IMG/VR virus record: IMGVR_UViG_3300008339_007878
Span: 1 to 22,792 of that record
Strand: one strand, 5' to 3'
Length of the DNA: 22,792 nucleotides
Source: a virus
The notes below the pieces were generated by a model. The model ran no database searches and was not told where the DNA came from. It saw only the letters and a program-made list of their open reading frames with translations. The translations under genes were made by a program, and so were the position numbers. Positions 1,750-20,217 of this stretch are shown in pieces. Positions within the stretch are counted from its first letter, which is position 1. Every line of letters begins with the position of its first letter.

Positions 1750-2104
1750 GGGGGTATAACGGTATCGATTGGATAATAGCAATTATGTTAGCAAGTAGTG
1801 GTTGATCGACCGGCCACTTTAAAAAGTCGATTAAACGCTTTAACTGGCGAAACTCAGTTAGCCCTTGCTGCCTAATAAATAAGTAGCAACAATCTTAGAA
1901 AGCGATGAAGGTAGCGTTCAAAAGATTGATGTAAAATCCTTCGGCTGCTAGAATAGCCAACGGGTTCTAGCCTGAGATTAGTTGGTACGGAAAGATGAAT
2001 GTTGTTTGTTCTTTAGTCTTTCTTAAAATTTATGAATAAACTAAACTTGTAGAATATATAATGAAAATTATCGCAACACATGGGTTCGACTCCCATTACC
2101 TCCA
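1750..2104 (+). ncRNA. ssrA: transfer-messenger RNA (tmRNA)
   Basis: This is a full one-piece tmRNA. The acceptor stem pairs GGGGGTA (1750-1756) with TACCTCC (2097-2103), with A2104 as discriminator. The T arm is ATGGG-TTCGACT-CCCAT (2080-2096). The 5' block GGTATCGATTGG matches the conserved region after the acceptor stem. Pseudoknot PK1 is explicit: stem 1 AGTGG/CCACT (1797-1801/1814-1818) and stem 2 ATCGAC/GTCGAT (1805-1810/1826-1831). Eleven nt later, the same spacing as in E. coli tmRNA, an open frame (1843-1872) encodes TGETQLALAA before TAATAA; the ALAA end is the classical protease signal. The resume codon would be ACU, unusual for a position normally Ala or Gly, so the exact first codon is less certain than the tag end. 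No CCA is encoded. Such an RNA frees stalled ribosomes and tags the nascent chain. Confidence 0.93.
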
Positions 2105-2106
2105 CT

Positions 2107-2451
2107 ATGCCTAGAAAAATTTGTACTTATTGTGGTAAAAGAAAAAACCGTAAAAGTTTTCCTAAACATAGTTTGTACAAAGATAAACTAGATACAAGAT
2201 GTAAAAAATGCGTTAAAGAACATTCAAAGGTAAGAAATAAACTTCATAAAAAAGCACCAGATAAACCAGAAGTTTGTGAGTGTTGTAAAAAGATCCCCAT
2301 TAAATGGGTATTAGATCATAACCATGATGATGATACTTTTCGTGGATGGCTTTGTGATAGATGCAATACCGGCATAGGAAAATTAGGAGATAATTTAGGT
2401 GGTATTGTCAATGCGATGAATTATTTTCTCTCAAGACCCAATCGCAAATAG
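2107..2451 (+). CDS. endonuclease VII-like HNH nuclease
   Basis: This is a 114-residue His-Me-finger nuclease of the recombination endonuclease VII family (T4 gp49-like), which resolves Holliday junctions and other branched DNA. An N-terminal zinc knuckle (C6xxC9, C32xxC35) precedes the core: C57-x2-C60, D70-H71-N-H73, the FRGWLCDRCN block with C83xxC86, and GIGKLGDN. I set the start at ATG 2107, two bases after the tmRNA discriminator; an in-frame ATG at 2080 lies inside the tmRNA T arm and is rejected. No Shine-Dalgarno is present; the upstream bases ACCTCC are anti-SD-like and belong to the acceptor stem. It is shorter than T4 gp49, so it may be a related homing-type or debranching nuclease. 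Confidence 0.82.
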   Translation: MPRKICTYCGKRKNRKSFPKHSLYKDKLDTRCKKCVKEHSKVRNKLHKKAPDKPEVCECCKKIPIKWVLDHNHDDDTFRGWLCDRCNTGIGKLGDNLGGIVNAMNYFLSRPNRK

Positions 2452-3898: not shown

Positions 3899-4600
3899 AT
3901 GATTGTTGAGAACACTGTGGTCGATACCAATAAAGTTGAAATGAGCAAGACGAAGGCTGATATTTTCTTTGAGACTTTTCCTAAAGATAAGGTTGTCAAG
4001 TATAAGGAATATTGGGAGAGTGTTCGTCCTCAGAATGTTGAGGATATTTTTCGTCGCTATCTTTTCAGTTTTATGAGCGTTCATACAACATGGAAGTCTA
4101 ATGTTAGTGGCTATAACGCAATCAAAGACTTTAATGATTGGATTGATAATAAAGAACTGCTGAGAGATAAGATTAAAAGTAGTGGTTGTGGGCTATACAA
4201 CAATCGCACAAAGTTTATTTGGGATTTTAAGGATAAATTTTGGTCTAATCCGAAAGACTTTTATCTAACAAACAAAAAGTATCATGTAAAAAAGAGAGAT
4301 CAGATTGTCAATAATATTTCTGGACTAGGTACTGCAAAAGTTTCGTTTGCATTAGAGCAATGCCACCCTAATGAGTGTAGGGTATTTTGTGGTGATACTC
4401 ATATGCTGGAATTGTATGGCATGAAAACTCTTACTTATCAGTCTAAAAGGGGTCTTGAACAATATAAGAAAATGGAAAGACATTGGAGTATTAATTGTGG
4501 CAAATTAGGCGTTCCTCCTTATATTGCTAGATGTATTTTTTGGGATGCAAAACAGAACAAGACCGATTCTCGTTATTGGTCGTATGTATTTGAAGAATAA
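3899..4600 (+). CDS. HhH-GPD DNA glycosylase-like protein
   Basis: This 233-residue protein is probably a base-excision-repair glycosylase relative. Residues 138-152 form a helix-hairpin-helix (NNISGLGTAKVSFAL) followed by C-G-D166-T-H, matching the HhH-GPD layout in which Asp is catalytic (VDTH in endonuclease III). Lys147 lies within the hairpin, one residue off from the catalytic Lys of endonuclease III; archaeal 8-oxoguanine glycosylases show a similar K/D pair. There is no FeS cluster Cys set at the C-terminus. The promoter, codon use and position after DNA ligase fit a repair role. Substrate unknown; loss of lyase activity is possible. Confidence 0.6.
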   Translation: MIVENTVVDTNKVEMSKTKADIFFETFPKDKVVKYKEYWESVRPQNVEDIFRRYLFSFMSVHTTWKSNVSGYNAIKDFNDWIDNKELLRDKIKSSGCGLYNNRTKFIWDFKDKFWSNPKDFYLTNKKYHVKKRDQIVNNISGLGTAKVSFALEQCHPNECRVFCGDTHMLELYGMKTLTYQSKRGLEQYKKMERHWSINCGKLGVPPYIARCIFWDAKQNKTDSRYWSYVFEE

Positions 4601-5114: not shown

Positions 5115-5133
5115 GGTGTTATTATATTAATGG
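5115..5133 (+). promoter_or_regulatory. AT-rich element before DUF1501 gene
   Basis: GGTGTTATTATATTAATGG contains a -10-like TATTAT/TATATT without a matching -35. Nearly the same string, GGTGTATTATATTATG, occurs at 15371-15386 before the secreted protease gene. A shared promoter type is an inference from two copies. Confidence 0.4.
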
Positions 5134-5149
5134 CAACGGAGTTTATAAT

Positions 5150-6496
5150 GTGAAAATATCCAGAAGATCACTTATTCAAAGTGGCCTATTAGGCTACTCA
5201 TCATTATCTGCAACTGAGGTTATAGCAGAATCTAAAACTGATAATTCAGTCATACTGGTTTGGTTGCCGGGCGGGCTTTCTCAATTAGAAAGTTATGATC
5301 CTAAATCACAAGCCAAAAGCGATGTAAAGGGATTATTTAATAGTATTCCTACTAATGTGGTTGGAACTCATATTAGTGAACTATTTCCTTTACAGGCACA
5401 AATAGCAGATAAATTTACTCTTATACGATCTATGACCCACAGATTCACCGATCATGGTGGAGGGTCCAAAAGAGTAATGACAGGAAAAGAACCCAAAGTT
5501 CCTACAGGTACTATTAACGATACTCCATCTATAGCATCAGTAGTTTCAAAACATAACCATAATAATGGTTGTATTATTCCATCTAATATTTTATTAGCGG
5601 ATGGTGGCACTAATTCTGTTGATGAATTTGCACTAGGGTCTGCATTTTTGGGATCGTCATATGATGCCTTTATTGTTGATGGCGACCCTTCTGCTAAAAA
5701 TTTTAAAGTAAACAATATTACTATGTCAGATAGTCTTAAAGGCAGAATTGATGATAGATTACAATTGCTATCTCAAATAGATAAAATAGATAGACAATTA
5801 GATTATTCGCAATCTATGAGTGCTATGGATAATTTTCATAAAAAGGCTTATGATTTATTAACTTCTCATGAAGTTAAAGGAATTTTTGATGTAGTCTCTG
5901 AGCCGTTATCTGTTAGAGAGAGTTATGGATTAAATGCTTGGGGTCAAAGATGTCTTATGGCAAGAAAACTAGCAGAAGCAGGCAGTAATTTCGTAACTGT
6001 AACATTAAGAAATCCGCCAGGATCACCACCAGATCATTCGTATTATAATTGGGATTGTCATGCTGTTAATTGCGATATATTTATAGATATGAAATATAAA
6101 GCAAATTTTTATGATCAGGCTGTTAGTGGATTAATTAATGATATCTATAATAGAGGATTAGATAAAAATATTTTAGTTGTAGTAATGGGAGAATTTGGAC
6201 ATACTCCTAAATTAGAATATAAAGAAGCAAGAGGTAAAATAAGAAATGGTAGAGATCATTGGTCTAAAGCATTTTCTATATTAGTATCTGGTGGTGGATT
6301 AAAAATGGGTCAGGTTATTGGCAAAACAGATGACAATGCTGCATTTGTAATTGATCGTCCTGTGACTCCAGAGGACTTGTGGGCCACGATTTATAGGCAC
6401 TTGGGTATTGATGCGTCTAAAGTTATTTATGACCTCAGTGGTCGGCCAATTCCTATTTTAGCAGATGGCAGACCCATAAAAGAACTGGTGATTTAA
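5150..6496 (+). CDS. DUF1501 exported protein with Tat-like signal
   Basis: This 448-residue protein starts at GTG 5150 (the ATG two bases earlier runs straight into TGA), with ACGGAG 8-13 nt upstream. The N-terminus (ISRRSLIQSGLLG) has a twin-arginine motif and a short hydrophobic stretch, so Tat export is likely. The body shows the DUF1501 family blocks: LPGGLSQLESYDPK (39-52), W301-D-C-H304, MGEFGHTPK (346-354), GRDHW (367-371) and GGGLKMGQVIGKTD (381-394). The family belongs to the alkaline phosphatase/sulfatase fold and is very abundant in Planctomycetes, usually beside DUF1549/DUF1553 cytochrome-type genes, which are absent here. The substrate is unknown. A copy in a phage suggests acquisition from the host and action at its surface. 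Confidence 0.88.
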   Translation: MKISRRSLIQSGLLGYSSLSATEVIAESKTDNSVILVWLPGGLSQLESYDPKSQAKSDVKGLFNSIPTNVVGTHISELFPLQAQIADKFTLIRSMTHRFTDHGGGSKRVMTGKEPKVPTGTINDTPSIASVVSKHNHNNGCIIPSNILLADGGTNSVDEFALGSAFLGSSYDAFIVDGDPSAKNFKVNNITMSDSLKGRIDDRLQLLSQIDKIDRQLDYSQSMSAMDNFHKKAYDLLTSHEVKGIFDVVSEPLSVRESYGLNAWGQRCLMARKLAEAGSNFVTVTLRNPPGSPPDHSYYNWDCHAVNCDIFIDMKYKANFYDQAVSGLINDIYNRGLDKNILVVVMGEFGHTPKLEYKEARGKIRNGRDHWSKAFSILVSGGGLKMGQVIGKTDDNAAFVIDRPVTPEDLWATIYRHLGIDASKVIYDLSGRPIPILADGRPIKELVI

Positions 6497-6679
6497 ATGA
6501 ATATGATACAATATCTGGCTCATGAATTAAATAATAAGGTGTTTCATCTACAAAAACTGCTCAAAGAAACAGAACTTGCTCTGGATGAATCAAAAAAAGA
6601 AAATATGAAACTATTATCTCTTTTAGAAGCACGGAAAATTTCTCCCAATACGGAAACTGAAACAGCAGACTGTTGCTGA
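6497..6679 (+). CDS. small helical protein
   Basis: A 60-residue ORF begins directly after the DUF1501 stop (TAA then ATG), so it is probably translationally coupled; an in-frame ATG at 6503 is an alternative start. It is predicted to be one long amphipathic helix (LAHELNNKVFHLQKLLKET), ending with a Cys-Cys pair. There is no signal peptide. Function unknown. Confidence 0.5.
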   Translation: MNMIQYLAHELNNKVFHLQKLLKETELALDESKKENMKLLSLLEARKISPNTETETADCC

Positions 6680-6705
6680 AAAATAAAAAATCTCAAGTTG
6701 TGCTA

Positions 6706-6733
6706 TTGACAAGCCGATACTGTGAGATAGAAT
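6706..6733 (+). promoter_or_regulatory. sigma70-type promoter with CGATAC spacer box
   Basis: TTGACA (6706-6711), a 16-nt spacer with CGATAC at 6715-6720, then TAGAAT (6728-6733). It drives the small HTH-like gene through a 70-80 nt leader that contains a hairpin. Confidence 0.8.
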
Positions 6734-6744
6734 GAGTTAGTCGC

Positions 6745-6776
6745 TGTGAGAGATTTGATCATGCGATCAACTCACA
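6745..6776 (+). promoter_or_regulatory. 5'-UTR hairpin
   Basis: The outer arm TGTGAG (6745-6750) pairs with CTCACA (6771-6776), and the inner arm TTGATC (6755-6760) with GATCAA (6765-6770) around an ATGC loop; four unpaired bases (AGAT) sit on the 5' side. It lies between the promoter and the ribosome site and could stabilise the mRNA or serve as an operator. Confidence 0.6.
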
Positions 6777-6809
6777 AAAGACAAATTTGGATATGTTTGG
6801 AGGTTGATT

Positions 6810-7088
6810 ATGGCTGAAGTTAATGTGCTTGAGAAGCAGAAGAGGATTCGTTGCTCTGACGAGGCTTTTCTTGAGGCGGTTTTTAGCAGTAAGACTTATG
6901 CTGAAGTTTCTGCTAAGACTGGGCAGAAGATTGCCACTACTATGGCTAGGTATGCCCGTGCTAAGGCGGCATTAAAGGCCAAGGGTGAGGATCTTCCTAA
7001 GATGGAAAGAGCAAAGCCTGTTAAGAGTGTGGATAATATTGAGGCTATGGCGGATTTTGTCCGTCGCCTCAAGGCTCACAAGGCTTGA
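6810..7088 (+). CDS. small basic HTH-like protein
   Basis: This 92-residue protein starts at the ATG 6 nt after a GGAGG ribosome site (6799-6803); an in-frame TTG two codons upstream is less likely. Residues 15-50 (SDEAFLEAVFSSKTYAEVSAKTG and the following KIATTMARYARAKAAL) have the helix-turn-helix rhythm with a Lys/Arg-rich second helix. The C-terminal third is basic and helical. I infer DNA binding, possibly as a regulator or nucleoid-type protein; no family name is certain. The strong promoter, optimised codons (AAG, GCT, CGT) and dedicated terminator make it a stand-alone, highly expressed unit. Confidence 0.7.
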   Translation: MAEVNVLEKQKRIRCSDEAFLEAVFSSKTYAEVSAKTGQKIATTMARYARAKAALKAKGEDLPKMERAKPVKSVDNIEAMADFVRRLKAHKA

Positions 7089-7730: not shown

Positions 7731-8064
7731 TAGATTCTTTTATGGTTTTTCTGTGAATGATGGCAATCATAATTCACATTTTATTCACTATATTATAGAA
7801 ACCGTACATGATATATCTGATTATAATGGAGATACTATAATTGAAAGAGTATCTCGTATGGAAGATTATTATCTGAATACCGACAGAATAGATGAACCAT
7901 ATTATATTGTATATGGATCACTAAAACCAGAATTTAATGAATCTTCCAAATTTATAGCCTCTTTTGAAAATCTTAGTCAGGCTATCTGTTTGGTCGAACA
8001 TTTAACTGGTAACAAAATAGTTGAATCTGATTTACCTATTTATAGACAAAAGCATGAAAACTAA
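7714..8064 (+). CDS. hypothetical protein
   Basis: This 116-residue acidic, aromatic-rich protein begins inside the end of the previous gene (17-nt overlap). No family is recognised. It alternates short strands (FFYGFSV, PYYIVYGSL) with helices and has no signal peptide, membrane segment or metal motif. Context suggests one of a row of small accessory genes transcribed together from 7210 to 9471. Confidence 0.6.
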   Translation: MVTYPNRFFYGFSVNDGNHNSHFIHYIIETVHDISDYNGDTIIERVSRMEDYYLNTDRIDEPYYIVYGSLKPEFNESSKFIASFENLSQAICLVEHLTGNKIVESDLPIYRQKHEN

Positions 8065-8545
8065 ATATATAGTAGAAATACTTAGAAGCGAAGGTGCGAG
8101 CGCCCAATTTTATTCTATTAAAGGCTCAAAAACTTTAGGCTTTAAAGAATTCTGTTCAAAAAAGACCGCACTCTATGCTTATAAGGTTCAGAAAAAATTA
8201 TCTAAACTAGGTTTAGCCCCTAAAGTTTATGTTAAAATTAAACGAGTTCCCATTCATAATCATAATGAGTCTACTAATTGGGGATTCGTTACTCAAAAGG
8301 CAAGAATTCTAGGGCATAAATATTCTAGAGAAAAAATACAAACTCTTGTTGATAAAATATTCGACAAAACAAATTTAAAGTTTTGGGACTGCCATTCTTG
8401 GAATATTGGCAGATTAAATAACAAGTATGTTTGCATAGATACTGGTAGGGAAAGTTTTGATAGCAATTGTAACGCTTGGGGAAATGTTGACCCAGGTCCA
8501 AAATGTGACTATTGTTTAAAATATAAATGTAAATGCGAGGAATAA
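8054..8545 (+). CDS. kinase-like fold protein (small, degenerate)
   Basis: This is a 163-residue protein. I chose ATG 8054, which overlaps the previous stop, over an in-frame ATG at 8021. Residues 29-58 (GFKEFCSKKTALYAYKVQ, then LSKLGLAPKVYV) resemble the N-lobe of small phage protein-kinase-like proteins. D112-C-H-S-W-N117 followed by C-I-D129-T-G131 mimics the kinase DxHxxN and DFG-type pair. A usual ATP-binding Gly loop is not obvious, so activity is doubtful. The C-terminus adds a Cys-rich tail (C151xxC154, C159xC161) that may bind zinc. The assignment is by motif order only. Confidence 0.45.
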   Translation: MKTKYIVEILRSEGASAQFYSIKGSKTLGFKEFCSKKTALYAYKVQKKLSKLGLAPKVYVKIKRVPIHNHNESTNWGFVTQKARILGHKYSREKIQTLVDKIFDKTNLKFWDCHSWNIGRLNNKYVCIDTGRESFDSNCNAWGNVDPGPKCDYCLKYKCKCEE

Positions 8546-8548
8546 TAT

Positions 8549-8860
8549 ATGCCTTATGTAGATGAAGATGATAGAGAAGAATTAGATTTTTGTATTGACC
8601 AATTAACTAATTGTTTACGCGTTATGAAACACCCCCTGAATAATCCTCATGATTTTAGCATATATCTAGGTAGAATAAACTATTGTTTTTCTAGAATAAT
8701 TAGCGGGTTGATGGGTAATCCATCTTATGCTAAGATAGCAATGATTACTGGTGTATTAGAGAATATTAAACAAGAATTTTATCGTCGCGTAGCATCACCA
8801 TATGAAGATAAAAAGATTTTGGAATATGGAGATATAAAAGAATATAAAAAACTTAGTTAG
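8549..8860 (+). CDS. conserved phage hypothetical protein (PYEDKK type)
   Basis: This is a 103-residue helical protein. It has the full layout of a widespread small phage family: MPY-x6-R-x-E-LD at the N-terminus, a central helix with GRINYCFSRI, then SYAKIAMITGVLENIKQEFY and RRVASPYEDKKILEYGD near the end. The family has no established function. A GAGG ribosome site lies 7-10 nt upstream of the ATG, within the end of the previous gene. Confidence 0.75.
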   Translation: MPYVDEDDREELDFCIDQLTNCLRVMKHPLNNPHDFSIYLGRINYCFSRIISGLMGNPSYAKIAMITGVLENIKQEFYRRVASPYEDKKILEYGDIKEYKKLS

Positions 8861-8869
8861 GAGATTATT

Positions 8870-9220
8870 ATGTCTAGAGATTATGATGATATTATTAAAG
8901 AGATAACTAAAAGTAATAAAGAAATTCATAATATGGATAAGAGTTTTTCTAAAGATATAGACTCTCTTCAAAAGAATATTAAGACGATAGAGACTAAGTT
9001 AGCCAAAATAGATGCTACTCTTGAAAAAGTATACGATCTTTTAACTGCTATAACTGTTTTTATAGAAGAAGCAGAAGAAGATGAAGAGGTTGACGAAGAT
9101 TCAGAAGATTGGACCCCTTATGATGAAAGAAATTTTTCATATGAGGACGATGAAGAAGAAAATACAGATAGTGATTATGGTCTAGAAAATGATTGGGAAG
9201 ATCATAATGATGATAACTAA
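8870..9220 (+). CDS. coiled-coil protein with acidic tail
   Basis: This is a 116-residue protein with AGGAGA upstream. Residues 5-65 form a strong heptad coiled coil (IKEITKSNKEIHNM, then LQKNIKTIETKLAKI, and LEKVYDLLTAI). From residue 66 to the end it is almost entirely Asp/Glu with a few Tyr/Trp/Ser. Acidic tails are also found in RIIB and in the protein at 13178 in this window. A DNA-mimic or chaperone-like role is possible but unsupported. The stop overlaps the next start (TAATG). Confidence 0.6.
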   Translation: MSRDYDDIIKEITKSNKEIHNMDKSFSKDIDSLQKNIKTIETKLAKIDATLEKVYDLLTAITVFIEEAEEDEEVDEDSEDWTPYDERNFSYEDDEEENTDSDYGLENDWEDHNDDN

Positions 9221-9471
9221 TGGCTAGTTTAGCGTTAATAGTGGCATTTATATTTTTAGGAATGATATTCTGTGGCCCATTAGTGCTGCTGTTAAATAGA
9301 GTAAATATATTACCTAGAATAATTATTCAATTATTATCTACTGTTTGTATAGTTTATGGATTTTGGTGGATAATCACTCTTGTTACCCCTATTCGCTGGC
9401 TAGGATTATTGCCCATATATTGTGGGTGGTTAGCCATAAAAACTAAAGAGAGGACACTTGACAGTCGATAG
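9220..9471 (+). CDS. small integral membrane protein
   Basis: This 83-residue hydrophobic protein overlaps the previous stop (TAATG). Two clear transmembrane stretches (about 3-25 and 34-57) are followed by a third weaker one (about 60-72), with a basic C-terminal end. No holin or transporter motif can be named, although small multi-span phage proteins near RII genes may act on the host membrane. Its end overlaps the RIIA promoter. Confidence 0.6.
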   Translation: MASLALIVAFIFLGMIFCGPLVLLLNRVNILPRIIIQLLSTVCIVYGFWWIITLVTPIRWLGLLPIYCGWLAIKTKERTLDSR

Positions 9472-9485
9472 CAGTATGGTACGAT
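9458..9485 (+). promoter_or_regulatory. sigma70-type promoter for RIIA
   Basis: TTGACA (9458-9463), a 16-nt spacer with a CGATAG variant of the spacer box at 9466-9471, then TACGAT (9480-9485). The -35 overlaps the last codons of the membrane-protein gene. A TGGAGA ribosome site lies just before the ATG at 9529. Confidence 0.75.
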
Positions 9486-9528
9486 AGGAGCATCACAGGA
9501 ACCTTGGTTAAACACTTGGAGACAAACG

Positions 9529-12195
9529 ATGAAGTTGGCAGACAGGACAGTTGAGACTCATAGCACTGGCATTAAGAGTGAGTCTGGTTTCACTATTGCA
9601 CAAACCAGCAAAATGTTTAAAATCTTGTCAGACTCGCTGTATTCTGATAAGGTTATGGCCGTTATTCGTGAACTATCAACCAATGCTTATGATAGTCATA
9701 TCGCTTCTGGCAATAAGAATCCATTCAAGGTGATTCTGCCGAATGCTGCTAATCCTAACTTTGTAGTGCGTGATTATGGTACTGGTCTTAGTCAGGCCGA
9801 TATGGAGAACCTGTATACAACATACGGGGCTAGTAACAAGAATACTAGTAACGATTTTGTTGGTTGTCTTGGTCTTGGTAGTAAGAGTCCTTTTGCTTAT
9901 ACCAAGAGTTTTACCACCAGTTCTTATTTTAACGGCCAAAAATATACTTATGTAGCCGCTATTGATGACTCTGGAGTGCCAACGCTGAATCTGTTTAATA
10001 TCTCAGAAACAGATGAGCCTAATGGTCTAGAGATTAGTTTTGCTGTAAAGCAATATGACTTTGCTGAATTTAGCAGTAAGTCTATGCGTATTTTTCACTA
10101 TTTTAAGATGAAGCCAATTATTGAGGGTGGCGTACTCAATAATCTAAAAGATCACAAGTACAGTAATCGTAGTATTGTTTTGAGTGGTGATGGATGGAGA
10201 GTTTGTCGTCTAAATAACGATGCTAATTATTATCCCAATGTTCATCATCATATTGATAGTGGTATTGTGGCACTTATGGGTAATATTGCATACCCTGTTA
10301 AGGCTAGTCAGATTATTGGTGAGGATAAGCAGACCACTAATGATGCTATTCAGCGTTGGAATCGTGCTTTTCAAAAGGCCGATATCGACAGTTGGAAAAG
10401 TTTTGTTAATGAAATTATCAATCAGAACCTTTATCTGGAACTTGACTTTAGTATTGGCGAATTGGAAATGGATGTTTCCAGAGAAGGCTTACAGTATACT
10501 AAAGACGTAATTAAGACCTTGCGTGAAAAGACTCAAGAGATTTATCTTGAGATGAAGGAAGAATTTAGCAAGAAAATTTCTGCCGCTAAAACTAAGGTAG
10601 AAGCAATTACACTATATTATACCCTTAATGATCTTGCTGGAGGATGGGGTGTTGGTGCTGAGTGGACCGATAGTAATGGTAAGAAGCATAATATTAATTC
10701 TGGAACAGATCTAGAATATAAGATTGCTGCCGGAAAGAGTATGTACGTTTTTAACTATCGTACTGCTGGCTATCGTTCTCGCCGCATGGTTTATCAGACA
10801 AATAGTATTCATCACAATACTCTTACTGGTAAGGGAGAATACTATTGGAATAGCCAGAAAAAGACAGGCGAACTATCCTTCTTTGTTTGCGACATTAAAA
10901 CAGAAGAAACAGCAAAGAAGATTGTTACTAGATATTGCAACGAGAAGAATTGCTTTGCATATCTAATGATTGATACCAAAGATCATACTAAAGTTGGTGA
11001 AGGTTTTGATGATCTTATTACTGATGTTGGTTCTCATAATATCAAGAAGGTTTCAGATTACAAAGACCTTATTAAGAATAATGGTCCTCGTAAGTCTAGC
11101 AATAGAGGTTCTACTGGCGTTATTAGTGATCAAGATGTATTCTTTATTTATGGTCAATCTAAGAATAGTGGAACAATTTCTTCTGTTTATAACGATGCGA
11201 CATATCTGCGTACTCTCACAGAATCTGAACTAGAAGATTTTGAAGATAGTACGGATATTGTTTATGTGCCCATTACGCGATATAGTAGCGATAGTGGCTA
11301 TCCATCATTAATGGGCTTAAACAAGATTATCTCTGATAGTTCTTTGTCTACTATGGTCAAAGAATTGTTTGGATCAGTCAAAATATATGCTATTAAGAGT
11401 AACTTTGTTAAGAAGTTGCAGAACAGTGGATATAATATGATTGATTTTAATAAGTTTTTCAAGACTCAACTAAAGAAATTGGCAAGCGGCACATTTGGTC
11501 AAATGGCCGAATACAATAGTCTGGTTCAGTTTTGCAAAAACGAAGATGCTAAGATGAGCAAAGACAGTGGATATGGATATGGGTCTATGGAGAAACAGTT
11601 TGTGTTCCATATGCTAAATATTTTTGGTCTAGATTATAGTAAGCATCTAAATAACAAAGATTTGACCGATGCTATAGATCATTGTCTGGTCATAGAGTTT
11701 TTTGCTGATACTGTTCATCGTTCTAATTTTGATATTGCTCGATTTACTCAGAAAGAGTATTTTGATCATATTACCAAACTACTAAATAAGATCGGTATCA
11801 CCAGTATTGATAGTAAAAAGATCAAAGATAGTAATATTGCATACAATACTCTGAGTCGTGCAATTGAACACACTATGTACAATTCGCTAGATCATGATGT
11901 TGTTTCTGAATGTCTGGAAATTATTAAGCCAGATATGACCAAGAAGCATACTCTGCCAAAGATTAGTGATATTAAAAATCTAATCAAGATCGGGCTTGAC
12001 AACAACCCGATACTGAAGTATATTGTTGGTAGTCACAGCGTTAGTGGTAATCTTAGGGATTTGCAATTGTCTAACGATCCTGTTTCTCAACTGCAAGAAC
12101 GAAATTACTATTATAGAAATAGCAACAAGCCTTGGCTGGCAACTCTAAGTGATGTGGATTCTCTTAGAAAGCAAATTGGTAGTTTGGTTAAGTAA
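9529..12195 (+). CDS. rIIA: RIIA-like protein, GHKL ATPase
   Basis: This 888-residue protein is the largest in the window. The N-terminal GHKL (Bergerat) ATP site is explicit: N-box IRELSTNAYDSH with E48 and N52, G1 box R81-D82-Y-G84-T-G86, and G2 box GCLGLGSKSPFAY (112-124). RIIA of T4 is a membrane-associated protein (725 residues) needed for lysis inhibition and for growth on lambda lysogens; biochemical function remains open. The C-terminal 600 residues show no recognised domain. The gene pairs with RIIB 25 nt downstream. It uses many AAG, CGT and GGT codons, unlike the AGA/AAA-rich small genes before it. Confidence 0.9.
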   Translation: MKLADRTVETHSTGIKSESGFTIAQTSKMFKILSDSLYSDKVMAVIRELSTNAYDSHIASGNKNPFKVILPNAANPNFVVRDYGTGLSQADMENLYTTYGASNKNTSNDFVGCLGLGSKSPFAYTKSFTTSSYFNGQKYTYVAAIDDSGVPTLNLFNISETDEPNGLEISFAVKQYDFAEFSSKSMRIFHYFKMKPIIEGGVLNNLKDHKYSNRSIVLSGDGWRVCRLNNDANYYPNVHHHIDSGIVALMGNIAYPVKASQIIGEDKQTTNDAIQRWNRAFQKADIDSWKSFVNEIINQNLYLELDFSIGELEMDVSREGLQYTKDVIKTLREKTQEIYLEMKEEFSKKISAAKTKVEAITLYYTLNDLAGGWGVGAEWTDSNGKKHNINSGTDLEYKIAAGKSMYVFNYRTAGYRSRRMVYQTNSIHHNTLTGKGEYYWNSQKKTGELSFFVCDIKTEETAKKIVTRYCNEKNCFAYLMIDTKDHTKVGEGFDDLITDVGSHNIKKVSDYKDLIKNNGPRKSSNRGSTGVISDQDVFFIYGQSKNSGTISSVYNDATYLRTLTESELEDFEDSTDIVYVPITRYSSDSGYPSLMGLNKIISDSSLSTMVKELFGSVKIYAIKSNFVKKLQNSGYNMIDFNKFFKTQLKKLASGTFGQMAEYNSLVQFCKNEDAKMSKDSGYGYGSMEKQFVFHMLNIFGLDYSKHLNNKDLTDAIDHCLVIEFFADTVHRSNFDIARFTQKEYFDHITKLLNKIGITSIDSKKIKDSNIAYNTLSRAIEHTMYNSLDHDVVSECLEIIKPDMTKKHTLPKISDIKNLIKIGLDNNPILKYIVGSHSVSGNLRDLQLSNDPVSQLQERNYYYRNSNKPWLATLSDVDSLRKQIGSLVK
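11996..12024 (+). promoter_or_regulatory. possible internal promoter for RIIB
   Basis: Inside the RIIA coding region TTGACA (11996-12001) is followed after 17 nt by TATATT (12019-12024), and the spacer holds CGATAC at 12008-12013. The arrangement equals that of the intergenic promoters, about 200 nt before RIIB. Because the bases also encode LDNNPILKY, chance is possible. Confidence 0.45.
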
Positions 12196-12220
12196 TCACA
12201 GGAAACTAAGGAGATTTATA

Positions 12221-13093
12221 ATGAGTGTTCCATTTATGTTTGTTGACGGTAATTTGACTCTTGTTCTTAACAATAAGAGTTATCAGGTGTTGCCAGATCA
12301 TCTAAACTATAAGATGATTCTGGAAGTTCTACCTACTGCTAGTGCAGATGAACTGCTAGAGATGGTGGATATTCAAAAGGCCGTGACAGTTTATAGTCAG
12401 GGTCTTGTGGAGATCAAGGAAGGTCGTGTTCTTTATGATAACGAAGAAGTACATGGTAGTATCAGTAAGCGTATTCTTGAGTTTATGAGCAAGGGTCTGC
12501 CATTTCAGCCTCTTGTTAATTTCTTGAATAACTTGATGGATAATCCTAGTATGCAGAGTCAGCAGGAACTATATGATTTCCTAGAGCATGAGCATCTGCC
12601 AATTACTGAAGATGGTCATTTTCTAGCATATAAGGCTGTTCGGTCAGATTATATGGACAAGTATGCTGGCAAGTTTCGTAACAAGGTTGGCGATATTTGT
12701 AAGATGACTCGTTCAAAGGTTGATGATAATCGTAGTGTGGGATGTTCTCAGGGACTTCATGCTGGGGCATTGAATTATGTTGCGTCTTATGGTAATGTAG
12801 ATGCTGGTGATAAGATCGTGATTGTTAAGATCAATCCTAAAGATGTAGTGAGTGTTCCTAGTGATTGTAATCATGAGAAACTTCGCACCTGCCAATATGA
12901 AGTTGTTGGAGAGTATCAGGGCGAATTGCTCAAGCCTCTTTACTCTGCTAATTTTAATGAAGATGATTATAATGATGATGAAGACGAGTATGATAATGAC
13001 TATGATTGGGGATGGAATGACGATGAAGAAGATATAGATGATGATTTTTATGCTGAACAAGAGGATGAAGAGGACTACGACGATCAATATTGA
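12221..13093 (+). CDS. rIIB: RIIB-like protein with acidic tail
   Basis: This is a 290-residue protein starting at ATG 12221 with AAGGAG 8 nt upstream; an in-frame ATG at 12149 lies in RIIA and is rejected. The core matches the RIIB pattern: LPITEDGHFLAYKAVR, then YAGKFRNKVGDICKM, SQGLHAGALNYVASYG, IVIVKINPKDVVSVPSDC and CQYEVVGEYQ. The last 50 residues are a run of Asp, Glu, Tyr and Asn not expected in T4 RIIB. RIIA and RIIB act together. The TGA lies inside a perfect palindrome. Confidence 0.88.
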   Translation: MSVPFMFVDGNLTLVLNNKSYQVLPDHLNYKMILEVLPTASADELLEMVDIQKAVTVYSQGLVEIKEGRVLYDNEEVHGSISKRILEFMSKGLPFQPLVNFLNNLMDNPSMQSQQELYDFLEHEHLPITEDGHFLAYKAVRSDYMDKYAGKFRNKVGDICKMTRSKVDDNRSVGCSQGLHAGALNYVASYGNVDAGDKIVIVKINPKDVVSVPSDCNHEKLRTCQYEVVGEYQGELLKPLYSANFNEDDYNDDEDEYDNDYDWGWNDDEEDIDDDFYAEQEDEEDYDDQY

Positions 13094-13177: not shown

Positions 13178-13612
13178 ATGCACGAAGATTATGATGATCA
13201 TGACTATGATGATGAGGACTACTATGATTATGATGATAATGACCAGTATGATCCTTACAAGTTTTATTTCAAGTTTGATGTGGGTGCAGACTCACCAATA
13301 TCAGATATGATTAATAAATGGTTTAATCTTAGTCAAGACTCTTTCAATGGATTACACTGGTATAGTTTTCCAACAAATATTGATGGTTGGCCTGTAATTA
13401 AGTTTCCTGTGAGTAGTTGGAATCCCAATACTGGCAAGGATAATTCCTTCCAGTATTTGGGGTCCAATTATCAAGGATCACCCATATGGAAAAAAAAGTA
13501 TTTCGTATATAATCCTCTAAATATAGAGTATAAATTACATTTACAGCAACACGCTACACATTTTATACAACAACCGACATATTACAAAGGAATGTTTGAT
13601 ATACTCAACTAA
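13178..13612 (+). CDS. hypothetical protein with Asp/Tyr-rich N-terminus
   Basis: This 144-residue protein has AAGGAC 10-15 nt upstream of the ATG. Residues 3-26 are almost only Asp, Tyr, Glu and His (HEDYDDHDYDDEDYYDYDD), similar in composition and DNA sequence to the tail of RIIB, which ends 85 nt earlier. The rest (from YKFYFKFDV) is aromatic-rich with SFPTNIDGWPVIKFPVSSW and no recognised motif. The similarity suggests that the acidic segment was copied or that a longer gene was split. Function unknown. Confidence 0.6.
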   Translation: MHEDYDDHDYDDEDYYDYDDNDQYDPYKFYFKFDVGADSPISDMINKWFNLSQDSFNGLHWYSFPTNIDGWPVIKFPVSSWNPNTGKDNSFQYLGSNYQGSPIWKKKYFVYNPLNIEYKLHLQQHATHFIQQPTYYKGMFDILN

Positions 13613-13621
13613 GGAAAAATT

Positions 13622-14041
13622 ATGAGCGAATGGTTTGTAGTTAAAGACAAAGATCATTTAATAGAATCAACCAGAATATTAGTATTTAATAGTTTTGGTA
13701 ATACAGAATCTAATGTTAAACTAAGTATTAATTCACAAGACCAAGAAGAATTAGATACTATATTATCTTTCAATGAAACTGAAAATATTATGATGCCACA
13801 TTTGCGTAAGCAAAGAAATAAACGCACCAACGCAGAAAGATATCTATTAGAAGATAAGCAATATCAAGAAATCATTCAATTACTTGGATCTCGTATGGTT
13901 AGTAATATTCTACATGGTCTAGTAAAGAAGGGACTAGTAGAATCAGCATTTGATACTGAATGTAATGATTTTATTTTTTGGGTGCCAGACTTGGAAAAGG
14001 GCTTAGAGTCAAATGAAGAAAACAAACCAGAAACCGATTGA
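13622..14041 (+). CDS. winged-helix-like protein, paralogue of 1233 gene
   Basis: This is a 139-residue protein with AAGGA upstream. The C-terminal half (NAERYLLEDKQYQEII, then SNILHGLVKKGLVESAFD, CNDFIFWVPDLEKG) looks like a winged helix, with a recognition helix ending in KKGLVE and a wing strand ending in FW. The same pattern occurs in the protein at 1233-1616. A basic stretch (HLRKQRNKRTNAER) precedes it. DNA binding is an inference. It overlaps the following gene by 29 nt and so is tied to the RuvAB-like module. Confidence 0.6.
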   Translation: MSEWFVVKDKDHLIESTRILVFNSFGNTESNVKLSINSQDQEELDTILSFNETENIMMPHLRKQRNKRTNAERYLLEDKQYQEIIQLLGSRMVSNILHGLVKKGLVESAFDTECNDFIFWVPDLEKGLESNEENKPETD

Positions 14042-14411
14042 ACACGATGTACACCTAAAATATTTGTGTAAGAAGTGTGGTCAAATTCATTGGCTATCTC
14101 TTAAAGAGTCGTCTACCAAACACTTTAAAATTGTTTGTGACTGTGGTAATATTTTTGGAGTAAAGCGAACATCCAGAATCAAGATTCTGTATTCTAAAGT
14201 TTCCAAAACTTCTACAACCACTAAATCACCACCTACTTCAACTCCACAACCTATTCCCGACTCTTTATTGTCACAAGGAATTGGTGTGTTGTTGCCCTAT
14301 GGCTTTACAAAAAAAGAAGCCAGTGAACTGTTAGAGAAAACGTATATGCTGCATCCTACACAGGATATAGCGTCTTTGGTTAAAGAATCATTATCTTCAT
14401 TAAGGAACTAA
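14013..14411 (+). CDS. zinc-ribbon protein with RuvA domain III-like end
   Basis: This is a 132-residue protein. The N-terminus is a zinc ribbon (C19xxC22, C42xC44). A Ser/Thr/Pro linker (about 62-82) joins it to a C-terminal helical unit, IGVLLPYGFTKKEASELLEK then SLVKESLSSL. This unit resembles RuvA domain III, the mobile piece that binds RuvB (an LGY-x3-EA-x-LL followed by an LI-x-EAL helix). The gene for a RuvB-like ATPase starts 3 nt after its stop and its ribosome site lies within this ORF, so the two proteins are probably made together. RuvA's DNA-binding domains are absent; the zinc ribbon could replace them (inference). Confidence 0.65.
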   Translation: MKKTNQKPIEHDVHLKYLCKKCGQIHWLSLKESSTKHFKIVCDCGNIFGVKRTSRIKILYSKVSKTSTTTKSPPTSTPQPIPDSLLSQGIGVLLPYGFTKKEASELLEKTYMLHPTQDIASLVKESLSSLRN

Positions 14412-14413
14412 TT

Positions 14414-15319
14414 ATGGCAAACTATCTTAGACCATCATCTTTTGACGAAGTAATCGGCCAAGGCGATACTATCAACCGTCTAAAAATCATGGTGAGAGGC
14501 TGTTTAAAATCTGGAGGGGTGCTACCTCATGTTTTAATTGACGGGCCTCCTGGCCTTGGTAAAACGACAATAGCGGGTGCTATAGCGAACGAGTTGGGGG
14601 TCAACTTGTATACGCTCAATGCGGCCAATATCCGTAGCATCAAGAACATCCTTCCGTATTTAATGAGCATATCTCCACGATCAGTATTGTTTATTGATGA
14701 GATTCATAGACTGCCTAAGATTGTAGAAGAATTTCTATATCCAATCATGGAGGATTTTGTTCTTAGTATTACTGTGAAAGATGATAATGATAAAGAACAA
14801 CCAACAACTATTGATCTTCCGGCCTTTACATTGGTAGGAGCAACAACTAGCGGTGGCAGTTTGAGCCAGCCTTTCTATGATCGTTTTATCATTAAAGAAC
14901 ATCTATCTTTTTATAACCTGAGTGAGTTAGCCAAACTAGCAGGATTGACAGCAAACAAACTCGGACTAATGATAGACGACTATAGTCTTGAGCAAATTGC
15001 TATGAGGAGTAAAGGTACTCCTAGAATTTTGCAAAGTAGGTTGCACTGGTATAGGAATTATATCATGTGTGAAAAAGATACTAAGAATGATATTGATGCT
15101 ATTTTTCAACTACAGGGTATAGATAGTCAGGGATTAGATGTATATGATAGATTGTACCTAGATATTTTGCGTAAGGCTAAAGGAAATCCTTTAGGATTGA
15201 AAACCATATCTTCTATGACAGGAATAGCCATAGAGACTATTGAAAATAGTATTGAGCCTTATCTTGTAAGAGCTGGATTTATTCAGCGCACACCAAAAGG
15301 AAGAATTATAGTAAAATAG
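14414..15319 (+). CDS. ruvB: RuvB-like Holliday junction helicase
   Basis: This 301-residue AAA+ ATPase is slightly shorter than bacterial RuvB (about 335). Motifs in order: LRP-x7-IGQ at the N-terminus, Walker A GPPGLGKT (44-51), Walker B VLFIDEIHRL (91-100), sensor 1 LVGATT (140-145), D156-R157-F as the arginine-finger segment and sensor 2 GTPRI (201-205). A C-terminal winged helix follows (GIDSQGLDVYDRLYL, then GNPLGLKTISSMTG and EPYLVRAGFIQRTPKGR), as in RuvB. RuvB pumps DNA through the four-way junction to move it. Loading by the adaptor encoded just upstream and cleavage by the endonuclease VII at 2107 are suggested by context. Confidence 0.92.
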   Translation: MANYLRPSSFDEVIGQGDTINRLKIMVRGCLKSGGVLPHVLIDGPPGLGKTTIAGAIANELGVNLYTLNAANIRSIKNILPYLMSISPRSVLFIDEIHRLPKIVEEFLYPIMEDFVLSITVKDDNDKEQPTTIDLPAFTLVGATTSGGSLSQPFYDRFIIKEHLSFYNLSELAKLAGLTANKLGLMIDDYSLEQIAMRSKGTPRILQSRLHWYRNYIMCEKDTKNDIDAIFQLQGIDSQGLDVYDRLYLDILRKAKGNPLGLKTISSMTGIAIETIENSIEPYLVRAGFIQRTPKGRIIVK

Positions 15320-15386: not shown

Positions 15387-15420
15387 CGATTTTTGTTTCA
15401 CGATAATGGAGTATTCCACC

Positions 15421-16158
15421 ATGAAACGCATAATATTACTATGGTTATTTTTGATATGCTCAATTTCTTATGGTGGTACTGGTAGTCCCGACACGCCAGA
15501 TGATAAATATGTAGATTATGGCAAAAAATTTACATCAGTAGTAAGAATTTGTGGTTCATATAAAAATAATCCACAAGAACAATACTGTGGATCAGCGGTG
15601 ATTATTAGTCCTCACTATATTGTGACTGCTGCTCATGTTGTCAGGGGTTCTAGGTCTTGTCATATAGTATTAAATAATAAAAACTATGAAATTACTCAAG
15701 TTGTCGCCCACCAAGACTTTGAAAAAGATACTTTAGATAGTGCTGATATTGCAGTAGGGTATAGTAAGGAACCTATGAACCTAGACTCTTATCCTGAACT
15801 TTATACTGAACAAGACGAAAAAAATAAGTCATGTGCATTATCTGGATTTGGTTTTGCTGGTAATTTTAATAGTGGTGCAACATTTAGTGACGGTGAAAGA
15901 AGAGCTGGTACTAATGTAATAGATTATGTAAATAAGGGGCTATTATTTTGCTCTCCATCAAAACCCCAAGAAAAAAACACAACTAGATTAGAATTTCTAA
16001 TTGCTAGTGGAGATAGTGGTGGTGGTCTTTTTATAGGTAATAAATTAGCTGGTATTCATTCATTTATTTTTGCAGATAAAAACCTAAGTCAGATTATCTT
16101 ACTGAATCAGCACACACTAGAATTAGTAAGTATGCGGATTGGATTAAGGAAAACATGA
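15421..16158 (+). CDS. secreted trypsin-like serine protease (S1)
   Basis: This is a 245-residue protein. I chose ATG 15421 because GGAG lies 9 nt upstream and the N-terminus (MKRIILLWLFLICSISYG) is a clean secretion signal; an in-frame ATG at 15406 would add 5 residues. The chymotrypsin-fold triad is complete: H72 in TAAHVV, D109 in SADIAV and S199 in GDSGGG. CGSAVIISPHYIVTAAH is the classic S1 approach to the histidine. Six Cys would suit disulfides outside the cytoplasm. Phage-encoded secreted S1 proteases are uncommon. It may act on the host envelope or on competitors; the target is unknown. Confidence 0.88.
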   Translation: MKRIILLWLFLICSISYGGTGSPDTPDDKYVDYGKKFTSVVRICGSYKNNPQEQYCGSAVIISPHYIVTAAHVVRGSRSCHIVLNNKNYEITQVVAHQDFEKDTLDSADIAVGYSKEPMNLDSYPELYTEQDEKNKSCALSGFGFAGNFNSGATFSDGERRAGTNVIDYVNKGLLFCSPSKPQEKNTTRLEFLIASGDSGGGLFIGNKLAGIHSFIFADKNLSQIILLNQHTLELVSMRIGLRKT

Positions 16159-16159
16159 A

Positions 16160-17101
16160 ATGAAACGCAATGATTATTCTCTATTACCATATACTAGACA
16201 AGATATATATGGATTATCTCCAAAAGTTAGTCAAATTTTAGGGTGGGAAATTATTCAGTTTGATATTGTTGAGCAATGGAAGTATTGTAGTGGTGATGAT
16301 GTTATTGTGGCGGTGATAGATACTGGTTGTGATTTAGATCATCCAGATTTATCTAAAAATTTATTACAAGGAATTAATCTTATAGACTCTAAAAAAGACC
16401 CAATAGACGATAATGGTCATGGCACTCATGTGTGTGGCACTATAGGAGCATCTCATAATAGTATAGGCATGGTTGGTGTAGCGCCAAATACCAAAATTTT
16501 ACCTATAAAAGCATTAGATGGTGCTGGATCTGGTAGTAATAAAGATATTGCAAGAGGTATAGTTTATGCTGCTGATAGGGGATCGAATTTGATTGCTATG
16601 TCTTTAGGTTCTCCAAATTTTTCTCAAGCTCTGTATGATGCAATAATTTATGCTACTAAGAAAAATAGTATTATTTTTTGTGCTGCTGGTAATGCTGGAG
16701 AAAATACTCCAATCATGTATCCAGCAAAACATAAAGAGACCATAGCAATAGGCTCTATTGATCGTAACCTGAATAGATCAACATTTACTTGTAAGGGTGA
16801 AGAATTAGATTTTTTATGTCCAGGACAAGATATATTTAGTTGTGTACCAAATAATACATATGCTATTATGAGTGGAACTAGCATGGCTAATCCATTCGCT
16901 GTTGGTTGTGCCTCATTAGTATTGTCTTTTTATAAATCACAAAAGCAAGAACATAAACTTTCTTCTAAAGAAGACTATATTAATTTATTCAAACAAATGA
17001 GTAAGAGTCTGAAAAATAGCAAATATGCGGGAAAGAAAGAGTATGAAGGATATGGTATAATATACCCAAGTATAGGTAATATTACTGCCCCACCTGCATA
17101 A
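16160..17101 (+). CDS. subtilisin-like serine protease (S8)
   Basis: This 313-residue protease has a complete S8 triad: D54 in VIDTGCDLDHPDL, H87 in NGHGTHVCGT and S241 in SGTSMANP, with the oxyanion-hole N178 in AAGN. There is no signal peptide and only a short N-terminal segment (about 40 residues), not a full inhibitory propeptide, so it may be intracellular like Bacillus IspA; export by another route cannot be excluded. AAGGA lies 9 nt before the ATG, one base after the previous stop. Pairing with the S1 protease suggests a proteolytic module, perhaps with one enzyme activating the other. Confidence 0.9.
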   Translation: MKRNDYSLLPYTRQDIYGLSPKVSQILGWEIIQFDIVEQWKYCSGDDVIVAVIDTGCDLDHPDLSKNLLQGINLIDSKKDPIDDNGHGTHVCGTIGASHNSIGMVGVAPNTKILPIKALDGAGSGSNKDIARGIVYAADRGSNLIAMSLGSPNFSQALYDAIIYATKKNSIIFCAAGNAGENTPIMYPAKHKETIAIGSIDRNLNRSTFTCKGEELDFLCPGQDIFSCVPNNTYAIMSGTSMANPFAVGCASLVLSFYKSQKQEHKLSSKEDYINLFKQMSKSLKNSKYAGKKEYEGYGIIYPSIGNITAPPA

Positions 17102-19212: not shown

Positions 19213-20217
19213 ATGGCAATCGGATTAGACGTTGGTACAAGTTATATTGTGGCTTCTAGAGAAAATAATGGCAATGTGGAATATAAGGACTTTAGAGACG
19301 CTTTTTATATTATTAAGCCAACAACACCAGTAGCCACCAAAATGATTGAGAAAGGACTATCTGGTAAGATTTTCATTAAGGATAGTGATGGTTCTTTTAT
19401 TATTCTTGGTAAAGACGCTTTAGAAAAAGCTATAGAAAGAAATGATACGGCTAAACGCCCAATGTATCGTGGAGTAGTTTCAGCCAAAGAAAAAGACGCT
19501 AAAAGAATTCTAGCTTTTATTCTTAAAGAAGTTGTTGGAACAGCCTCAGAACCCAATGAACCACTAGTTTTCTGCGTTCCTGCACAACCAGTTGATCAAG
19601 ATGATGAAGATTTTGATGTTGGATATCATGAAGATGTAGTAAAGACTGTGCTAGCAGAATGTGGCTATAATGCTCGTGCTATTAATGAAGCAGAAGCTCT
19701 GTGTTATGCGGAACTAGAATCCGATGATTATACTGGCATTGGAATAAGTTGTGGAGCAGGAATGACGAATGTTTGTGTGATGCTTAACGGCGAGCCAACT
19801 GTGGTTTTTAGTACCACCAAGAGTGGCGATTGGATTGATCGTATGAGTGCCGTAGCCACAGGAGAAACGGACAGTGTTGTTCAGGCTGAAAAAGAGGGCG
19901 GCGATTTTAAAATTGGCGAACCAAATGATAATCCTGTGTTGTCCGCAGTTTCAGCATATTATGAAAGATTAATTGACTATACAACCAAGCAACTATCTGC
20001 TGCACTATCTAATCATAAATCATTACCCAAATTTAAAAATCCCATTAAAATTGTGATTGCTGGGGGAACATCACAAGCAAAAGGATATATTAGTAATTTT
20101 CAAATGAAACTGAACGACAATGGTTTTCCATTACAAGTTAAAGAAGTGGTTCACGCTAATGATCCACTCCATGCGGTATCGAAGGGTTGTCTGATAGCAT
20201 CAAAGGCTCTATCATAA
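19213..20217 (+). CDS. actin-like ATPase (filament-forming, putative)
   Basis: This 334-residue protein has the actin/Hsp70-superfamily nucleotide-binding layout: phosphate 1 GLDVGTSYIVAS (4-15), connect 1 INEAEALCYAELE (157-169), phosphate 2 GIGISCGAGMTNV (175-187) and adenosine motif KIVIAGGTS (279-287). The length is near MreB and ParM (about 320-350), much shorter than Hsp70, so a filament former is more likely than a chaperone. Large phages use tubulin- or actin-like filaments to position DNA or virions. It ends TAATG into a small membrane peptide and starts after another one. Filament assembly is unproven. Confidence 0.8.
   Translation: MAIGLDVGTSYIVASRENNGNVEYKDFRDAFYIIKPTTPVATKMIEKGLSGKIFIKDSDGSFIILGKDALEKAIERNDTAKRPMYRGVVSAKEKDAKRILAFILKEVVGTASEPNEPLVFCVPAQPVDQDDEDFDVGYHEDVVKTVLAECGYNARAINEAEALCYAELESDDYTGIGISCGAGMTNVCVMLNGEPTVVFSTTKSGDWIDRMSAVATGETDSVVQAEKEGGDFKIGEPNDNPVLSAVSAYYERLIDYTTKQLSAALSNHKSLPKFKNPIKIVIAGGTSQAKGYISNFQMKLNDNGFPLQVKEVVHANDPLHAVSKGCLIASKALS

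Follow-up and report, generated by a model that had tools for sequence, protein, structure and literature searches.

How is a phage RuvB brought to its DNA when the protein encoded directly in front of it is not RuvA? Bacterial RuvA has two tasks, recognition of the junction and, through its domain III, the loading of RuvB onto it (PMC10272136). The question is raised by an uncultivated virus record of 22,792 bases (IMG/VR record IMGVR_UViG_3300008339_007878, analysed at its full length and called the window below), in which the open reading frame (ORF) of a small protein, here called the adaptor, ends two bases before the ORF of a RuvB. An earlier note made from the letters of this DNA had placed the two ORFs at 14013-14411 and 14414-15319, and both positions hold. 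Judged by its sequence, ORF 14414-15319 is unambiguously a RuvB, a divergent member of its family. The adaptor is a new architecture that borrows domain III of RuvA, and is not a RuvA. Profile searches, a profile-profile alignment checked against shuffles, and structure prediction with AlphaFold identify its C-terminal unit as RuvA domain III; its N-terminal unit is, by sequence motif and model, a C4 zinc ribbon that is predicted to bind zinc. Our best reading, held with somewhat more confidence than doubt, is that the adaptor takes the place of RuvA: it would dock on RuvB, and its ribbon would determine where RuvB is sent. The features that concern this pair are as follows.

14013..14411, + strand: adaptor (zinc ribbon, linker and RuvA domain III), 132 residues, isoelectric point about 9.6
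14052..14159, + strand: zinc ribbon of the adaptor, residues 14-49, with C19, C22, C42 and C44 invariant; beta-rich in the model
14199..14252, + strand: Ser/Thr/Pro-rich linker of the adaptor, residues 63-80, with a low predicted local distance difference test score (pLDDT)
14253..14408, + strand: RuvA domain III-like three-helix bundle, adaptor residues 81-132, from profiles and structure matches
14414..15319, + strand: phage RuvB, 301 residues, from Pfam, NCBIfam and PDB searches
14759..14818, + strand: RuvA-docking beta-hairpin of RuvB (equivalent of E. coli L135-L152), altered in length and polar at the I148 position

A RuvA domain III joined to a zinc ribbon

Taken alone, the window adaptor gives weak Pfam matches, both to RuvA_C (expectation value E=0.18, 12.8 bits) and to a zinc ribbon (E=0.14). 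This weak single-sequence evidence becomes solid because 41 adaptors could be aligned (alignment A1; a broader alignment of 42 is called A6). The PDB chain that the A1 profile matches best is 1ixs_A (E=0.0013), the RuvA domain III of a structure of its complex with RuvB, and RuvA accounts for 7 of the 12 sequences that come up at E<=10; the A6 profile reaches E=0.00079, and RuvA again makes up 7/12 of the sequences listed. When the phage unit was aligned with hhalign to domain III of 12 bacterial RuvAs, the probability was 94.6 (E=7e-08, 49 columns); 100 column shuffles gave a maximum of 2.9 (0/100 over 3), the reversed profile gave 0.5 and the ribbon 0.06. Of the 49 divergent loci, 22 have an adaptor that is matched by a profile of 12 full-length bacterial RuvAs (E<=0.01, best 2e-05). 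Pfam RuvA_C is found at E<=1 in 9/41 members of the family (best E 0.007) and at E<=0.1 in 6/10 divergent members (best 0.0017, 19.2 bits).

Structural comparison points the same way. The AlphaFold2 model of the adaptor has a mean pLDDT of 84.9 and a predicted template modelling score (pTM) of 0.41, with two units on a loose linker; the beta-rich ribbon occupies residues 14-49 and the bundle residues 83-131, with helices 83-96, 100-113 and 119-131 at high confidence. In Foldseek, RuvA or RuvA-RuvB structures fill ranks 1-11, with probabilities of 0.82-0.99 and no E-value below 0.001. VIA-align puts RuvA domain III in its top 12 rows (Z 5.7-7.0), an unrelated chain follows at 5.2, and CUE, UBA and other domains follow from Z 4.9 downward; Z under 8 may mean a common arrangement only, and these values were used solely alongside the sequence evidence. 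Small three-helix bundles are common, so the unit might be a UBA-like domain that merely resembles RuvA domain III, and the sub-threshold Z values, the CUE and UBA rows and the want of a Foldseek match at E<=0.001 would fit that explanation. Such a resemblance would have to account for RuvA in the PDB lists of both profiles, in the first 11 Foldseek ranks and in the top 12 VIA-align rows, for the failure of the shuffled controls and for a bundle gene that adjoins RuvB. We consider it extremely improbable, and rejected it on the hhalign controls, Foldseek and VIA-align.

Positions on which RuvB activity depends in E. coli RuvA keep their hydrophobic character. Adaptor L93 aligns with L167 of E. 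coli RuvA and Y96 with L170, and both positions are hydrophobic in 41/41 adaptors (L/M and Y/L/F, respectively). In E. coli RuvA, L167A and L170A abolish RuvB activity in vivo while junction binding is kept (PMC2628435). The adaptor matches the C-terminal domain of RuvA only: homology to domain III is present, and domains I and II, which provide junction binding and the tetramer, have no counterpart in it. The earlier note had proposed a RuvA domain III-like end joined through an STP linker to a zinc ribbon, and the profiles, hhalign, the AlphaFold model and the invariant cysteines all bear this out.

In the N-terminal unit, C19, C22, C42 and C44 are invariant in 41/41 adaptors, as are Y17 and W27, and H26 is present in 38/41. 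The first knuckle is CxxC or CxxxxC, and as the second knuckle A1 members have CxC, some divergent ones (e.g., L248) CxxC. The adaptor thus has the two cysteine knuckles in a beta ribbon that characterize a C4 zinc ribbon, with the strands present in the AlphaFold2 model. The N-terminal part through residue 62 has a median net charge of +7 (3 to 13 in A1), and in A1 a linker of 16 residues (median) leads to domain III; a 15-residue unstructured linker precedes domain III in E. coli RuvA (PMC2628435). Weak matches of the ribbon are to ribosomal and other zinc ribbons and name no target. The adaptor evolves under purifying selection: the ratio of nonsynonymous to synonymous substitution rates (dN/dS) is 0.11-0.25 in 12 of the 16 compared pairs of relatives (dS over 0.1). 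The other four pairs were excluded with dS under 0.1, one of them having a ratio of 1.05 from one synonymous and four other changes; some loci were used in two pairs.

The RuvB motor and its docking hairpin

RuvB_N (3.8e-46, 157.2 bits), AAA_lid_4 (1.4e-07, 31.6 bits) and RuvB_C (1.5e-19, 70.1 bits) follow in order in the phage protein, each above its Pfam cut-off. The NCBIfam model NF000868 is passed with 305.3 bits (cut-off 282), and TIGR00635 scores 277.9 bits, below its cut-off of 299.05. The best 18 rows of a PDB search with window RuvB are all RuvB entries. Residue equivalences were set by alignment to the 336-residue chain 9dx4, whose numbering fits E. coli, together with PMC10071043 and PMC2628435. 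Walker A and B, the arginine-finger residue R157 (equivalent of R174), sensor-2 R204 and the DNA-contact residues R292, K295 and R297 are invariant in 50/50 phage RuvBs. The corresponding DNA contacts in P. aeruginosa RuvB are R314, R317 and R319 (PMC10071043), with lysine in the phage at the R317 position. These conserved residues suggest that phage RuvB is intact as a motor and would be active.

The docking surface differs from that of cellular RuvB. The RuvA-binding hairpin of E. coli RuvB is L135-L152 (PMC2628435) and binds RuvA domain III by hydrophobic contacts (PMC10272136). Hairpin length was measured by a sequence pattern, which parsed 126/129 phage loci and 11/14 bacterial records. 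It is 16 (51 loci), 21 (24) or 23 (5) in the first 80/80 phage loci, with one of 22 in the divergent set, and 20 in all 11 parsed bacterial records. The residue aligned with I148 is E (111), D (9), T (4) or N (2) in the 126 phage loci and, by eye, D or E in the three unparsed ones, whereas this position is I, V or L in each of the 11 bacterial ones. We take I148 and I150 to be RuvA-contact residues; a literature search for I148 yielded nothing. The remaining hydrophobic hairpin positions are largely kept, but phage RuvB does not have a RuvA-docking hairpin of the cellular type. Its length and the change at I148 are as expected if phage RuvB parted from cellular RuvA.

These hairpins bear on whether phage RuvB still uses the RuvA of its host, with an adaptor whose role is limited to modulation or to competition for the hairpin that both would use. 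RuvA is normally present in bacterial hosts, and adaptor-less phages keep RuvB while RuvA_N was not found in them, as host RuvA use would allow. A protein that still relied on cellular RuvA would not be expected to differ from cellular RuvB in hairpin length and at the I148 equivalent in all 126 parsed loci of 129, and we regard this alternative as improbable. Known RuvA-RuvB biology makes it very probable that the adaptor's own domain III, for which homology is established, would dock on the RuvB beta-hairpin. A coupling of the L170-aligned adaptor residue with the polar hairpin residue was looked for and not seen, RuvB being mostly acidic there for YG and LG adaptors alike. In three loci (L038, L039 and L080), the adaptor stop and the RuvB start abut in frame.

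Distribution of the pair and its partners

A RuvB scan of viral contigs gave 175 relatives, of which the best 80 were taken; the adaptor lies directly upstream of RuvB in 66/80 of these loci (49 distinct proteins). A scan with the adaptor profile (best 80 of 173 relatives) added 73 further loci, with many contigs shared with the RuvB-found set. RuvB lies directly downstream in 72/73, and the contig of the last one ends 20 bases past the adaptor. A scan from a divergent RuvB gave 50 loci, 49 of them new (contig 3300042565_001932 at least is also in the first set), with the adaptor in 45/49; a RuvA profile found nothing besides the adaptor in these 49 loci (+ strand, flanks up to 3 kilobases). 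The adaptor is closely spaced from RuvB or overlaps it. The pair, which the earlier note had suggested seeking in other phages, is therefore widespread in uncultivated phages. A RuvB-binding module carried without the junction-binding part might also serve as a decoy, with domain III capping host RuvB and blocking host RuvAB. A decoy would not need a RuvB of its own, yet the phage's RuvB adjoins nearly every adaptor-found locus (the 72/73 above), and this role seems very improbable.

Neither the window adaptor nor the protein of the gene at 13622, described below, has a match at E<=1 among 50,697 named phage records. RuvB matches 203 records of that collection, 33 of which cover at least 80% of the query, and window RuvB is 36.9-43.0% identical to RuvB in those 33 near full-length records. 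RuvA lies upstream in 12 of the 14 examined records of this collection with full-length RuvB. In L093 and L094, which carry Acinetobacter phage and Wolbachia phage WO labels, ruvA-ruvB lies amid bacterial housekeeping genes, and these stretches therefore look like host DNA; the neighbours of RuvB in Streptococcus phage Javan141 are a mix. A genome scan gave 8 relatives, two of which (L085 and L086) have RuvB of >60% identity over a long stretch, both with adaptor. In these two, the whole block including the adaptor lies in contigs binned to Flavobacteriales and Chitinophagia metagenome-assembled genomes; they look like phage contigs binned into such assemblies, a hint of Bacteroidota hosts or of binning error. 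A tree of RuvB with 67 rows, of which 48 come from adaptor loci, 11 from adaptor-less loci and 8 from bacteria, carries long-branch warnings and parts phage from the eight bacterial RuvBs (100/100, long branches).

Partner genes were sought in 27 records chosen from the first 80 loci, most of them long and some adaptor-less, and later in 16 more; the records searched may be incomplete. RuvA_N was found in 0/27 and 0/16 of them, which makes 42 distinct records (G018 is in both sets and the window record is not among them), while 10/14 control genomes were positive. RuvC, the resolvase of RuvABC, was found in 0/28 records, window included, with 11/14 control genomes positive. Both results agree with the earlier note, which had envisaged a phage system without the junction-binding core of RuvA and without RuvC, and its check for relatives with a full RuvA elsewhere favours the idea within these 42 possibly incomplete records. 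A RecA family protein was found by profile in 13/28 records and endonuclease VII in 16/28, the window being included in both counts. In the window, position 2107, where endonuclease VII had been noted, falls inside the following ORF.

2080..2451, + strand: endonuclease VII, candidate resolvase (Endonuclease_7, E=1.2e-10)

In one adaptor-less relative of 230 kilobases, there are genes for RecA, DnaB, a Toprim protein, Pol III alpha, DNA ligase and ribonucleotide reductase. In L187, a 230-kilobase relative, Pol III alpha is split over ORFs 5124-6995 and 7900-9525, about 900 bases apart, with PHP and NTPase domains followed by the finger domain. A phmmer search of three large records found no homologue of T4 UvsX, UvsW, UvsY, gp43, gp45, gp46 or gp47; among the 13 T4 proteins used, gp44 matches RuvB itself and gp41 a DnaB-like helicase in one record. 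These phages therefore do not look T4-like, apart from rIIA/rIIB and endonuclease VII.

A mechanism can be proposed from these parts. The phages would encode their own RuvB double-stranded DNA translocase, with the small adaptor standing in for RuvA. The mostly basic C4 ribbon on its flexible linker would hold RuvB at some target that is not a junction clamped by RuvA, and may be the loading surface that the earlier note suggested. Less firmly than for docking, we think it fairly probable that the ribbon addresses RuvB either to DNA, branched or single-stranded, in intermediates of phage recombination or replication, or to a phage replisome protein. RuvB, to judge from its conserved residues, would then pump duplex DNA and cause branch migration or fork remodelling, after which endonuclease VII, where present, may cut the junction; on this product our confidence is evenly balanced. 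The whole would work like RuvAB, with the junction clamp exchanged for a portable tether. As an evolutionary account, it could be that a large aquatic phage lineage dropped the RuvA clamp, moved its docking domain onto a zinc ribbon, rebuilt the hairpin to match and gave RuvB a new substrate, a tentative scenario that we place slightly on the doubtful side of even.

Several observations weigh against a docking RuvA substitute. None of 51 adaptors scanned reaches the Pfam RuvA_C gathering cut-off of 24 bits (best 19.2), and the position aligned with V164 of RuvA is hydrophobic in just 31/41 adaptors. Some adaptors are not basic, with isoelectric points down to 4.5 and a ribbon charge of -3 to 12 in A6. 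No adaptor occurs in the fetched flanks of 14/80 RuvB loci or in 4/49 loci of the divergent set, and four long adaptor-less records (113-230 kilobases) give no adaptor match over their whole length at E<=1. On the tree, the adaptor-less state must have been gained or lost eight times, at least three of these on well-supported branches. The hairpin is altered in adaptor-less phages too, so the adaptor alone does not explain the hairpin change. No direct sign of contact was seen: a model of the L038 adaptor-RuvB read-through is poor, above all in its RuvB half (whole model pLDDT 59.5, pTM 0.32; three rows covered RuvB), and in mutual information over 40 adaptor-RuvB pairs the share of cells over z=2 between domain III and the hairpin is 3.5%, no higher than in other regions. 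The claim of a RuvABC analogue with endonuclease VII as resolvase stands in part: the enzyme is there in 16/28 records, but the 12/28 in which it was not found and the adaptor-less loci speak against an obligatory analogue.

RuvB can manage without the adaptor in some lineages. Most of the changes on the tree, which itself gives no direction, are read as adaptor losses because the surrounding gene order is unchanged. A second copy of domain III was sought in the adaptor-less 230-kilobase record G015, and none was convincing (best E 0.1). In G019, which has the adaptor, a 155-residue frame at C1:58679-58780 gives a weak second match to the domain III part of the adaptor (E=0.026).

The records without endonuclease VII are also what would be expected if RuvB has been repurposed, with an adaptor that ties the translocase to the replisome, transcription or packaging and with Holliday junctions no longer its main substrate. 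A generic zinc ribbon with ribosomal-type weak matches would suit such a target domain; RuvA_N was not found, and Pol III alpha, DnaB and a Toprim protein are encoded by the 230-kilobase relative itself. This is difficult to square with standard DNA-contact and ATPase residues that are invariant (one contact arginine being lysine), or with the RecA family and endonuclease VII in 13/28 and 16/28 records, and we regard repurposing as unlikely.

Neighbouring genes and known systems

Upstream of the adaptor lie three further genes that accompany RuvB.

13622..14041, + strand: winged-helix-like neighbour gene (weak, C-terminal part), with a homologue near RuvB in all 129 loci
9529..12195, + strand: rIIA, in the syntenic block upstream of RuvB, with homologues in 62/80 loci
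12149..13093, + strand: rIIB, in the same syntenic block, with homologues in 74/80 loci

The 13622-14041 gene runs 29 bases into the adaptor start, and this gene, the adaptor and RuvB overlap or are closely spaced and are therefore packed operon-like. Its homologue is in the RuvB flank in 80/80 and 49/49 loci, the adaptor-less ones included, which makes it more constant than the adaptor. That constancy raises the prospect that the 13622 protein is the principal partner or loader of RuvB and the adaptor an accessory that is dispensable in some lineages. Winged-helix features would be in keeping with it: at E<=0.5 the family matches HTH_56 in 13/40 members, DsrD in 12/40 and an APAF-1-like winged helix in 7/40, all weakly. 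The same scan, however, yields weak matches to unrelated families, the family profile finds nothing in the PDB below E=0.36, and no domain III was found in the 13622 protein. Since rIIB and the gene at 13178 (homologue near RuvB in 79/80 loci) are nearly as constant, the constancy of 13622 may reflect synteny alone. A principal role for this protein is thus quite unlikely, although it, or something not yet seen, may share the work of the adaptor.

Other genes of the window were also noted. An actin-like protein of the Volactin family is encoded at 19213-20217 (PF25216, 214 bits), with a homologue in the flanks of 53/80 loci. Trypsin-like and subtilisin-like proteases are encoded downstream of RuvB at 15406-17101, with homologues in 59 and 29 of 80 loci. 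The record also has a DUF1501 protein at 5150-6496 (E=3.3e-79), found here in a phage record, and an OGG-type DNA glycosylase-like protein at 3899-4600 (PF22175, E=4.6e-07) near the ligase and endonuclease VII. The fetched flanks exclude the ligase, endonuclease VII and glycosylase genes.

In the literature within reach, which leaves out most subscription papers and bioRxiv, we found no account of a domain III adaptor paired with RuvB in a phage. Bacterial RuvA combines two tasks, and a natural adaptor that only docks separates motor recruitment from junction recognition; what RuvB needs from RuvA becomes directly testable with two small proteins. If the adaptor is a docking RuvA substitute, RuvA domain III would be a portable motor-recruitment module, RuvB could be aimed without RuvA, and a RuvB-type module would be added to phage biology. 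Together, the results suggest that many uncultured phages from water have rewired where the RuvB motor is sent.

With T4-type recombination the phages share endonuclease VII, rIIA/rIIB and DNA ligase; T4 has UvsX, UvsW, UvsY and gp46/47, which lack homologues in the three large records, and a RecA family protein occurs here in the 13/28 records given above. With RuvC-bearing jumbo phages they share phage-encoded junction processing. In those phages RuvC comes without a RuvB-like ATPase (PMC7824862), and the present phages are the converse, with RuvB and no RuvC in the records searched. Mycoplasma RuvA and RuvB are likewise a RuvAB system that has drifted from the usual model, and Mycoplasma has junction-binding RuvA homologues (PMC3364216). 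Phage RuvB shares the architecture, ATPase motifs, arginine finger and C-terminal DNA contacts of bacterial RuvB (NF000868; PDB 9dx4, 7pbl and 1in4); its N-terminus falls about 18 residues short of that of PDB 9dx4, and it differs in hairpin length, is polar at the I148 position and stands separate in the tree. The adaptor shares with bacterial RuvA the C-terminal three-helix domain III, a flexible linker of similar length and a gene upstream of ruvB. Where bacterial RuvA has domains I and II as a junction clamp, the adaptor has a C4 zinc ribbon instead.

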